The notes: generated by a model from the sequence alone, not told the origin. A DNA stretch of 40,368 nucleotides from Calditrichota bacterium (GCA_020051775.1 JAGVQJ010000193.1:1-40368); one strand, 5' to 3'; shown: positions 9,962 through 39,333, counted from the first letter of the stretch. A program made the numbers and translations.

Positions 9962-11002
9962 ATGTCCTTCCTTCAAAAACGCGGTAAAAACTGGTATCTG
10001 TTCTTCCGCGATGCCTCCGGCCAACAGAAAGCCAAGTCCCTGAAAACTGGCAATCAGCGGACCGCTGAGGAGCTCCAACGCAAATTCGATCAAGGGTCGA
10101 ACCTGGAGAAGTTCGGTTTTCACCAATCCGTGGCTCTCTCCGAACTTCTGAATGAGCGGGTTCGCTTTCATGAGAGCCTGGGACGGTCGCAGAATACGAT
10201 CAAGAATGAGGTCTATATCTTCAATGCGTTTCTGCGGTATTTGGGGCGGGATTCATTCCAGCAGAGTACTAAGGCAGTCCTGGAAGATTACAAGGATTGG
10301 CTTCGATCCAAGAAAGTCAATCCGGTAACGATTAATACCATTCTCAAGACCTTAAGGGCCGTTTTCAATTGGGGAGCTGCCAAGGGATATTGTCAAGCGG
10401 CAGAGATTGAACTGGTGAAGGTTGAAAAGCGGATGCCGATGGCTCTGGGGGAAAATGAGGTCGCGGCTTTTTTCGAGGCAATCAATCAACTTCCACCGGC
10501 CATTCCCAAAGGCGCGGAAATTTCAGACGTGGATTATTGGCGGGAGTACTGGAAACTGGTCTTTGAACTTTATCTGTACACCGGAGGGCGGAAAGAGGAA
10601 ATCGCTTCGCTTACCTGGGGTGACATTGACCTGGATCGTGAGGTTGTAGTTTTCCGCAACACGAAAGCCTCTCAAGAACGCGAGGTGCCCCTGCATCCGG
10701 CTATTGCTGCCAAACTGCGCGAGAAAGCGGGATCACCGGGGGATCGGCTTTGTGCTCACAGCGCTGGAGTTATTTACCACCAGTGCCGGAGGTTTATGGA
10801 GAAAGCAGGGATTACTCACCCGAAGAAATGGGGATTGCACGCGCTACGTAGAACCTTCGGATCGCACTTGATTATGAAAACGGGGGATATTGCCACAACC
10901 TCTCGGCTCTTAGGGCATTCCAGCCCCAGAGTCACTTACGACTCCTACGTGGATATTCTCCAACAGCACGCGCGGGATAGCATCAAAAAACTGAGCTGGT
11001 AG
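9962..11002 (+). CDS. Tyrosine recombinase / phage-type integrase
   Basis: 346 aa; catalytic signature YTGGRKEEIASLTW...NTKASQEREVPL...HALRRTFGSHL...LLGHSSPRVTYDSYVDIL. Confidence 0.95.
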   Translation: MSFLQKRGKNWYLFFRDASGQQKAKSLKTGNQRTAEELQRKFDQGSNLEKFGFHQSVALSELLNERVRFHESLGRSQNTIKNEVYIFNAFLRYLGRDSFQQSTKAVLEDYKDWLRSKKVNPVTINTILKTLRAVFNWGAAKGYCQAAEIELVKVEKRMPMALGENEVAAFFEAINQLPPAIPKGAEISDVDYWREYWKLVFELYLYTGGRKEEIASLTWGDIDLDREVVVFRNTKASQEREVPLHPAIAAKLREKAGSPGDRLCAHSAGVIYHQCRRFMEKAGITHPKKWGLHALRRTFGSHLIMKTGDIATTSRLLGHSSPRVTYDSYVDILQQHARDSIKKLSW

Positions 11003-11055
11003 AAAAGCAAATTGCTTACTATTTGACTCATAATTATGGATATTACGTAGAAAAT

Positions 11056-11103
11056 ACATGACTGGGGGTCATGTGGTCGCTGGTTCAAATCCAGTCGCCC
11101 CGA
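11056..11103 (+). pseudogene. 3' half of a tRNA-Pro(GGG): anticodon arm, variable loop, T-arm, acceptor 3' strand (att site)
   Basis: ACATGA-CTGGGGG-TCATGT (anticodon stem-loop, GGG anticodon), GCTGG-TTCAAAT-CCAGT (T-arm), CGCCCCGA; no D-arm or 5' acceptor strand upstream. Confidence 0.75.
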
Positions 11104-11168
11104 CAAGCAATGCTTGTTTCTACGCCAAGTGCTACGCGACTTGGCGCCAAACGAGCCGGAATTAATCG

Positions 11169-36279: not shown

Positions 36280-36286
36280 GGTTGAC

Positions 36287-39052
36287 TCACGAATGGTAAC
36301 TTAAGCCCAGTGAAAAGACTCGTCCCTGGCGATACGTCTGCGTCGTATAGTTTCCCGGCAGATCGTGCTCGAAGCGAATCTCCGGGTCCACCAGGTTTTC
36401 CAGCGTACCTTTAAGATCGAAGGAGCGACCCAGGTTCTGTTTGAAGGTGAAATCGAGATCCGGGTGAGGTTGTTCGTAAATGTCCGGCAGGTAACCAGCC
36501 CCCACTTCAGAGATGCGGCGACCGAAAACGTTCAGCAACAGATTGGCCTGAGTCCCAATTTTGGAATTGTGATAGCTCAGGTCAACATTCAGCAAGTAGG
36601 GGGATTGGCCCTGCATAGGGCGATCGCCCGATGAAGATAAACCGGCTATATCAGGATTGACTTTCACCCGGGAATGAAGGAGGGTTAAGTTCGAGGATAA
36701 AGAGAAGTCGCGCAGTTGACGCCACAAAATCCCCAGTGTGTGTCTCACTTCCAACTCCACGCCGCTGTTTTGGGCGCTGTGTGCGTTGTAGTAAGTAATG
36801 TCCTTGGCAGATCCCGAGATGCGCACAACTTCGATGGGGTTGAGGAAATGTTTGTAAAAAATGCTGGCGGAAGCCAGGTTGACTCCATCCCAGATTCGCT
36901 CCGCGCGAAGATCGAAATTGCGCACCAACGCCCGCTCCAGGTTGGGATTGCCGATAACGCTGTAACCGCCGTCATAATCGCTGTACCGGAACAGAGACAA
37001 TTCCCGGAAGTCGGGCCGCGAAACGGTCTGACTGGCGGCCAGGCGGAATTTAATCTCAGGATTGAGGTTATAGATTAGCGTCGCGGCGGGCAAGGCATCG
37101 GTAGTAGCGATGCGCCCCACGGTGGGGACATTATTGGGATTGAAACGCTCGAACGAACTTACCTCTTGCACGCCCTGTTCCAGCCGCGCGCCACCGCTGA
37201 ACAGCAACTTTCGGCCCAGGGGGATTTCGGCCATCCAGTAAACACCCCACAGGTTTTGGTGAGCGGAATAATCATCCGTGGTCTGAGTGCGTTCGACGAT
37301 GGTTAAGAAATCCGGGTTGAGGTAAAGCGGCTGAAAGATTTGCTCGGGCGGCAGGGAGACCAACGAATCAGGTACAGCACCGTTGACCGGCTCGTATCGA
37401 AATACGCGGGATTCCGCCTCGCGCCGGCGTTCCAGCAGGGAATAGCCGATTTTCAGCTTCAGATTTTCCAAGATCGCGCTGGGACGCAGAGACCAGTCGA
37501 ATCCCAGATTCCAGGTATCGTCATTCAGCTCATTGTAAATGCGCGTGCCGCTATTGTCGGGGTTGGCGCCCAGAGACACCACCCAGACCTGTTGCATATC
37601 CTCCCACAGATAATTGATCTGACGAGTGTCGGGTTCATAGCGCAGACCTCGCGAAAATGCCGCGCGCCATTTTAGGTTGGAACGCACCAGTTTAGGGAAG
37701 GTATGTTCGCCCATGAGCTGATTGGCCCAGATCGTTTCCCCGACGAAGCGAAAGCGCGTGGCTTGCACGTCGGTGCCTTGGTCGTTCTTGTATCCGCCAT
37801 AAGTGCGCACCTGGTCTTCCGCCTGGCGATTGAGGAGTAAGTTGTAATTGATATTCGTCAGCGGCGATAACGACCATCTCAAAGCGCCGACGGCTCCCAG
37901 GGTGATGGCATTATTATAGTCTCGGCCGCTGTAATTGTAGATCGGTGTCAATCCGTTGCCGGATTGAGCATAAGCATTCTGCTGGTAATTGCGAATGCTG
38001 AAACTGTTGCGGTATAACCCGGAAGTCATATAGGTCAAGTCACGGTTTAGTAGGTGAACGCGATGCAGGATTGAGGCGGAGTAGCTCTGGTTGGGATGGG
38101 CTGTCAACCAGTGCGGTTGCCAGGAATTGGGGAATGATTCACTCAAGTAATCCATCTGGCTGCTGGGCAGGTTTTCTATCTTGGAATTTGTATTTTCCAC
38201 GGCCCAGGGCAAGGCTCTGGAACCGTCATCGAAGCCGAGAAAATCCCATTTACCCCCGTCATAAGATTGGAAATCTTTGAACGTGGAACGGGTATTGGCG
38301 CTGGCAGAGGCGCTAAGATTTATTTGAGGCTTAGAATCGGCTCCCGAATATTCCCAGGTGTTCAGGTCAATGATCCCCCCGCCGAATTCCCCGAATTGAT
38401 CCGGCAAGTATGATTTGCTAACGGTCACCTGCTGCATCAATGTGGCCGGAAACAGTTCCAGTGAGACGGCGCTGCGATTGGGTTCCGTCCCGGAGAGTTG
38501 TGAACCGTTCAGCGTAACCTTGGAATAGCGCACTCCCAAACCTCGGATGATGGGATCTCCGCCCATAGTGGAAACACCGGTGGTCCGAGTGACGACGCGA
38601 GCTATGTCTGGATCGGGAAGCGAGCGGAGGGTTTCGGTTGAAAGCGCGTCGGTGATGCCGGTCGAAGCCTGGCGTTCCTCCAGTTCGCGTTCCTGCGTCC
38701 CCTTTTTCGATCCCGTGAAGACCTCAAGCTCCTGCATATTAAGGGCGGAAGCCTTGAGTTCAAAATCTATGGTAGTAATGCGATCTTCCAATACGCCGAC
38801 ATTTTGCATGACTCTGCTTTCGTAGCCGATCATGGTCACGCGTACGGTATACCGGCCCTGCGGAATTCCGGAGATGGAGAATTTACCTTCCACGTCGCTG
38901 GGCGCTCCGTAAGGCGTGTCCACGACCAGGATGTTGGCGGACATCAGCGGTTCGCGAGTGGCTTGATCGAGAATGATGCCGACAATCGCACCGGCCCAGA
39001 GCTCATGACTATACAGCAGCAAAGTACAAAGCAGATATAATGATTTTTTCAT
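36287..39052 (-). CDS. TonB-dependent outer-membrane receptor with N-terminal carboxypeptidase-regulatory-like domain
   Basis: GAIVGIILDQATREPLMSANILVVDTPYGAPSDVEGKFSISGIPQGRYTVRVTMIGYES; plug GGDPIIRGLGVRYSKVTLNGSQLSGTEPNRSAVSLELFPATLMQQVTVSKSYLPDQFGEFGGGIIDL; C-terminal barrel. Confidence 0.93.
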   Translation of the reverse strand: MKKSLYLLCTLLLYSHELWAGAIVGIILDQATREPLMSANILVVDTPYGAPSDVEGKFSISGIPQGRYTVRVTMIGYESRVMQNVGVLEDRITTIDFELKASALNMQELEVFTGSKKGTQERELEERQASTGITDALSTETLRSLPDPDIARVVTRTTGVSTMGGDPIIRGLGVRYSKVTLNGSQLSGTEPNRSAVSLELFPATLMQQVTVSKSYLPDQFGEFGGGIIDLNTWEYSGADSKPQINLSASASANTRSTFKDFQSYDGGKWDFLGFDDGSRALPWAVENTNSKIENLPSSQMDYLSESFPNSWQPHWLTAHPNQSYSASILHRVHLLNRDLTYMTSGLYRNSFSIRNYQQNAYAQSGNGLTPIYNYSGRDYNNAITLGAVGALRWSLSPLTNINYNLLLNRQAEDQVRTYGGYKNDQGTDVQATRFRFVGETIWANQLMGEHTFPKLVRSNLKWRAAFSRGLRYEPDTRQINYLWEDMQQVWVVSLGANPDNSGTRIYNELNDDTWNLGFDWSLRPSAILENLKLKIGYSLLERRREAESRVFRYEPVNGAVPDSLVSLPPEQIFQPLYLNPDFLTIVERTQTTDDYSAHQNLWGVYWMAEIPLGRKLLFSGGARLEQGVQEVSSFERFNPNNVPTVGRIATTDALPAATLIYNLNPEIKFRLAASQTVSRPDFRELSLFRYSDYDGGYSVIGNPNLERALVRNFDLRAERIWDGVNLASASIFYKHFLNPIEVVRISGSAKDITYYNAHSAQNSGVELEVRHTLGILWRQLRDFSLSSNLTLLHSRVKVNPDIAGLSSSGDRPMQGQSPYLLNVDLSYHNSKIGTQANLLLNVFGRRISEVGAGYLPDIYEQPHPDLDFTFKQNLGRSFDLKGTLENLVDPEIRFEHDLPGNYTTQTYRQGRVFSLGLSYHS

Positions 39053-39198
39053 TGGATGAGTGGTTAAAGTTTTTTAAGAGCGCTTTCTGCGTCAAAATTA
39101 CCACTCTAATGTTGCGTTTGTATGAGAAGGAGATTAGATTTTCGTTAAGATTTTCAAGGCGGAGGGATTTGATATTTTGCTGCAATGGGGGTAAATCA

Positions 39199-39333
39199 AG
39201 CCATAGAGTCGGCCACGACTCGTACTTGGAAATTCTTCAGCAGCACGCAAGAAATCGCATAAAAAAAACTTTCCTGGTAGAAAAGCAGATTGCCTACTAT
39301 TTGATTATTAATTACTCATATTGTGTAGAAAAA
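39199..39333 (+). pseudogene. Module copy D: integrase 3'-end relic and downstream flank
   Basis: SSHRVGHDSYLEILQQHARNRIKK vs intact SSPRVTYDSYVDILQQHARDSIKK; nucleotide match continues past the stop: tggtagaaaagcagattgcctactatttga...gtagaaaa. Confidence 0.85.

Follow-up and report, generated by a model that had tools for sequence, protein, structure and literature searches.

Worn tRNA-Pro junctions between the operons of a Calditrichota contig as a probable tandem array of integrative islands

The window analyzed here, a 40,368-nucleotide stretch of DNA from a Calditrichota bacterium that constitutes one whole contig (C195), very probably represents a tandem array of tRNA-targeted integrative islands. 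The older units would mostly have decayed to CIME-like (putatively cis-mobilizable) or fixed remnants, which may once have been able to move. Several observations support this reading, including the homology and common orientation of the repeated junctions, their native tRNA, a left end shared with the element beside that tRNA, a graded decay of the tRNA halves, and a like architecture in a sister genus. The array gives a single 28-kb stretch the form of an ordered series of insertions, ranging from perfect to nearly erased.

Repeated junctions between operons

Four related direct repeats (A to D), all on the + strand, were postulated by the original prediction and were found again by independent repeat searches. 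Relative to A, junction B is 80% identical over 232 bp (E 4e-57), with a further 90% over 40 bp of integrase tail, C is 75% identical over 154 bp (E 1e-25), and D is 77% identical over 137 bp (E 7e-23); B and C share 81% over 154 bp. Alignment divides the module into three parts, an integrase gene's end, the final 50 nt of tRNA-Pro(GGG) (its 3' half, from the anticodon stem on), and a terminator with its flank, and a unit of this composition is, judging from its sequence, a putative site-specific recombination junction.

Junction A (10923-11275, + strand, defined by repeat searches and alignment) comprises an integrase 3' end, the tRNA-Pro(GGG) 3' half, a hairpin, the terminator, and the flank. 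Its integrase end belongs to an intact tyrosine integrase of 346 aa (9962-11002, +; PF00589, E 5e-20) that bounds the leftmost, low-GC element on its right, and an HTH_3 (Xre-type) regulator lies directly upstream of this gene (9422-9952, +; PF01381, E 4e-9). After a gap of 54 nt follows the attachment core (11056-11105, +), identical at 50/50 nt to the 3' part of the tRNA-Pro(GGG) on contig C36, then a dispersed double hairpin directly after the tRNA end (11106-11147, +), and finally an intrinsic-terminator-like inverted repeat (11169-11200, +) common to the native tRNA-Pro terminators of C36 and of the genomes G002 and G003. Junction B (21464-21736, +) retains an integrase tail with an internal deletion, a tRNA-Pro half, a long hairpin, a terminator, and the flank. 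The proposal that the module recurs at all four sites thus holds for A and B, which are complete in kind, but not for C (30708-30866, +), in which the tRNA-Pro half, long hairpin, and terminator remain and the integrase tail is lost, nor for D (39196-39333, +), which consists only of an integrase tail and the post-integrase segment. No RNA family matches were found in the window.

The tRNA halves form a decay series. Identity to the 3' 50 nt of tRNA-Pro(GGG) falls from 50/50 at A to 43/50 at B and 39/50 at C; alignment scores to these 50 nt are 31 for B and 22 for C against a shuffle maximum of 10 (1000 shuffles each), and D, with a score of -4, has no detectable tRNA half. In an accretion array the newcomer inserts beside the tRNA, so decay should rise along the array, as it does from A to D; the chance of this order alone, for four items, is 1 in 24. 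The lack of an attachment site at D is a point against the array.

The original prediction also placed the modules between operons, which was borne out, and called for a count of copies and orientations. Module edges lie approximately 20-300 bp from the ends of adjoining operons, with no module inside a gene. Beyond the four clustered + strand copies, the 4.07-Mb assembly (196 contigs) has the module in just two places, at the intact tRNA-Pro(GGG) of C36 and, reduced to a single integrase tail, on C183; what else matches is the remaining pair of tRNA-Pro genes plus a copy of the hairpin on contig C49. With four copies on one contig and so few elsewhere, the clustering is not due to chance, and the alternative of a dispersed repeat is disfavored because the copies gather at one place. 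The C183 match (8860-8941) is another remnant of the tail of the window integrase, with no tRNA half beside it.

The native tRNA-Pro(GGG) site

The sole intact tRNA-Pro(GGG) gene found in the genome lies at C36:9153-9227 (ARAGORN). Upstream of it are pnp, a peptidase, an aminotransferase, dut, a deacetylase, and a MerR gene. Across the phylum this order is conserved up to the tRNA, starting at pnp, dut or MerR, and downstream there are no genes common to the genera compared. Three marks of a tRNA-targeted island are present, namely a tyrosine integrase beside an attachment site (at A), a direct repeat of the tRNA 3' end (50/50 nt) with an intact tRNA at one boundary (here on the separate contig C36), and surroundings that are conserved upstream and variable downstream of the tRNA in relatives. 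The tandem units split by attachment sites in one orientation, which characterize an accretion array, are seen for A, B, and C, with D lacking the tRNA part.

Behind the C36 tRNA lie a terminator and an 88-bp flank that matches A at 94%, followed by a different tyrosine integrase and a low-GC (46.7%) element carrying genes for a type IIG restriction enzyme, an SNF2-type helicase, a Bro-N protein, and ArdC. A relic of this C36 integrase is found right after A (11349-11561, +; tblastn, 52% amino acid identity over 71 aa, E 4e-15); it contains one stop and would be the decayed left end of the block-1 element. To the left of A is the intact Xre-integrase pair, in DNA of 47% GC. An integrase of one type lies left of A and a relic of the C36 type right of it, so at A the right end of one element meets, across the attachment site, the left end of its neighbor.

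The GC content of the left block of the window and of the C36 element is 46.6-47.1%, compared with 53.8% in the core of C36 and 54.1-54.5% in blocks 1-3, which are thus host-like. On the strength of equal GC and the perfect 50-nt attachment site, we predict that the C36 element and the left part of the window are two ends of one recent element, in which case C36 would be the head of the array. Against this prediction stand the contig ends of the window, C36, and C183, which do not overlap, and the gene truncated at the window's left end, which C36 lacks. That these are unjoined contigs of a MAG is also what might favor chance similarity or an assembly artefact, to which we attach almost no weight: the E-values reach 4e-57, misassembly does not yield diverged copies inside one contig, and an independent sister genome (G004) has a like design.

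Duplication, or homologous recombination between attachment repeats within one large element, could instead have produced two or three of the junctions, as their single family and orientation and the long hairpin form common to B and C might suggest. We consider this very improbable, as divergence differs greatly among the copies, the blocks contain unrelated genes, and the relic after A comes from another integrase family than the intact gene before it.

Under tandem accretion, tyrosine integrases of this family would insert a circular element by recombination at the 3' half of tRNA-Pro(GGG), for which they are presumably site-specific, and insertion would rebuild the tRNA and leave the old 3' half behind on the distal side. 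Successive insertions at this one site could then have given the order tRNA, element 0, attachment site A, element 1 (redox), attachment site B, element 2 (exopolysaccharide), attachment site C, element 3 (T9SS/TonB), old junction D, and kdp. Element 0 would be recent, given its low GC, intact integrase, and perfect attachment site, and elements 1-3 would have lost their integrases by deletion, leaving integrase tails and ever more worn tRNA halves. The closest relative of the window integrase is 38% identical and adjoins tRNA-Ser(GCT) on C13; a peptide-pattern search of GTDB contigs and IMG/VR returned no relatives, and at E <= 1e-40 relatives among 39 phylum genomes were confined to its own genome.

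Several features of the C36-type elements were noted in passing. An Rfam c4-2 RNA (RF02944, 49 bits) lies at C36 9477-9545, just 5' of the integrase gene beside the intact tRNA-Pro(GGG), in the element that also has the Bro-N (antirepressor-type) gene. At C36 13581-20265, the type IIG restriction-methyltransferase adjoins the HKD+SNF2 helicase as defense cargo of this low-GC tRNA-Pro element. A copy of the C36 integrase, 86% identical, occurs at C154 4687-5685, and approximately 1.2 kb from it (C154 6895-6926) is a tRNA-Lys-like 3' fragment, possibly another scar.

Cargo blocks and their counterparts in sister genera

Block 1 (11570-21338, - strand), identified from Pfam matches and a gene order conserved across the phylum, is a redox operon encoding a sigma54 activator, a FeMo-co-type protein, a CCG/Fe-S protein, a NarI-like protein, an Fe-S protein, an NrfD-cytochrome, a PAS kinase, and two response regulators. 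Its NrfD gene has matches in 33 of 39 phylum genomes, and the operon tree agrees with the pnp marker tree at family level; a tree in which the f1 species are constrained together is as good as the free tree (p-AU 0.53). A foreign origin of block 1 is accordingly unsupported, and the operon, being widespread in the phylum and matching the marker tree, is resident rather than foreign cargo. With both tree and GC content native, plain acquisition does not explain this block, which is better read, from these sequence comparisons, as resident DNA that probably came to lie between attachment sites by capture or relocation, barring an exchange with close relatives.

Block 2 (21761-30631, -) encodes a polysaccharide deacetylase, a TPR protein, a Big_7 protein, and a GT2 glycosyltransferase; this exopolysaccharide block is contiguous in G014:C104 and occurs in one other genus, plus a fragment in another. 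Block 3 (30887-39052, -) encodes two Por-tail (T9SS) proteins, a LamG protein, and a TonB-dependent receptor, whose gene is found in 16 of 39 genomes and, within its own family, only in this one. Beyond D, kdpA (39662-40368, +; PF03814, E 4e-93) is cut by the contig end and may be the start of a fourth cargo block; it is present in three other genera of the phylum. No relaxase or type IV secretion genes were detected among the Pfam-scanned genes of the window blocks, element 0 being incomplete in the window.

The original prediction of stepwise accretion at tRNA-Pro by related integrases is therefore upheld as to process, by the exact tRNA on C36, the graded decay, the second integrase relic, and the parallel in G004, but its premise that all blocks are acquired, foreign islands fails for the redox operon. 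The vertical inheritance of block 1, together with the clean placement of modules between operons, might favor a different history, in which a small mobile unit (integrase, attachment site, and terminator) was inserted repeatedly between operons that were already neighbors. This seems very improbable. Full copies exist nowhere else in the 4.07 Mb save at the native tRNA-Pro locus and one integrase tail, each partial copy couples a tRNA 3' half to a different left end on its opposite side, blocks 1-3 are adjacent in no relative examined, and the array of G004 begins at a real, intact tRNA gene.

In G004, which belongs to the same family but another genus, the kdp operon lies between direct repeats of 359 bp that are 96% identical and 7766 bp apart. 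Each repeat contains the 54-nt 3' end of tRNA-Lys(CTT) (54/54), a hairpin, a terminator, and an integrase tail; the first belongs to the intact tRNA-Lys(CTT) gene, and beyond the next block of genes comes a third half, tRNA-Lys-like and worn. On contig C43 of the same genome, a tRNA-Lys(TTT) half (48/50 nt) has an integrase gene to one side and the relic of an integrase tail to the other. The redox operon of G005 begins after tRNA-Glu and an integrase tail of 109 aa. The redox operon of G016 lies approximately 360 bp behind tRNA-Pro(GGG), in the opposite orientation relative to the tRNA from that in the window, which counts against the array, and a Por/TonB locus of G024 lies approximately 1.4 kb behind tRNA-Pro(GGG); as both lack integrase tails, they are only suggestive. 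Also in G005 (C12 10599-10651), two short tRNA-Pro 3' fragments in direct order lie right behind an intact tRNA-Pro(GGG), as apparent further scars at the same site in another genus.

It is tempting to speculate that tRNA-targeted elements serve as a general shuttle for resident operons in this phylum. Perhaps complete, vertically inherited operons (the redox complex, kdp) were picked up again and again between ends composed of an attachment site plus an integrase tail and re-sited at different tRNA genes across genera, with integrases encoded elsewhere in the genome acting in trans; we regard this as possible but rather unlikely. That the same operons turn up next to different tRNA genes from one sister genus to another suggests that site-specific recombination may move core metabolic operons, and not only accessory genes, and it is the part that merits follow-up.

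Known systems and the dispersed hairpin

The original prediction named no earlier description of the module, but the mechanism is already in the literature, so that this is no new kind of block delimiter; it is the host, an uncultured bacterial phylum without genetics to which tandem accretion is here extended, and the cargo that are new. Tandem accretion with integrase loss has been described for ICE/CIME arrays (Pavlovic 2004; Bellanger 2011; review PMC5704250), in which, as here, tandem elements are split by attachment sites located at a single gene's 3' end, members that have decayed and lost their integration genes keep their attachment sites, and a newcomer integrates beside them. Unlike those arrays, blocks 1-3 show no conjugation genes among the Pfam-scanned genes, the attachment sites at B-D are badly worn, and the cargo consists of complete housekeeping-type operons at host GC; the ArdC gene on C36 stands beside this comparison as an observation.

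The same process, with integrase loss, is known from the ssrA genomic islands of Dehalococcoides (PMC3146451), which resemble the window in having several islands in tandem, delimited by a single RNA gene's 3' end, an integrase 3' end at the attachment site, many islands without integration genes, and respiratory cargo. They differ in using the serine recombinase DsiB and tmRNA, where tyrosine integrases and tRNA-Pro/Lys/Glu are involved here. Tycheposons of Prochlorococcus, reported also in Methylophilaceae, are tRNA-bounded tyrosine-recombinase cargo elements (PMC10872708) that share the tRNA boundary, recombinase type, and metabolic genes, a likeness drawn by description only, whereas the main feature here is the order and decay of the attachment copies. 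An integron combines an IntI integrase with attC cassettes; the repeated site here is a tRNA 3' end, not attC.

The hairpin pair sits between the tRNA half and the terminator. In the original prediction the module comprised an integrase 3' end, a tRNA-Pro half, a terminator, and a flank, which stand, and an AAGC..GCTTG hairpin, which does not. Five exact copies of the larger hairpin exist in the family, each following either a tRNA 3' end or a repeated tRNA 3' half (Pro, Lys, His); variants are located after the stop codons of T9SS-tail genes (G003, G004) and, in its own genome, after polA. With related copies behind unrelated gene 3' ends in own and sister genomes, the hairpin was rejected as part of the integration site and is a separate dispersed repeat. 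REP-like dispersed palindromes are likewise hairpins repeated at gene 3' ends, but they account for the hairpin part only and leave the tRNA half and integrase tail unexplained.

The double-hairpin repeat consists of a small palindrome, a T-rich spacer, and CGCMAAGTGCTNCGCGACTTKGCGC, and is found directly 3' of genes in G000, G003, and G004, namely tRNAs, T9SS-tail genes (right at the stop codon), and polA; its first stem often takes in the last bases of the gene itself. A full-length paralogue (C49 10522-15234, 36% identical) of the FG-GAP/T9SS protein of the window (1092-5987) lies 1.4 kb behind the hairpin that trails polA.
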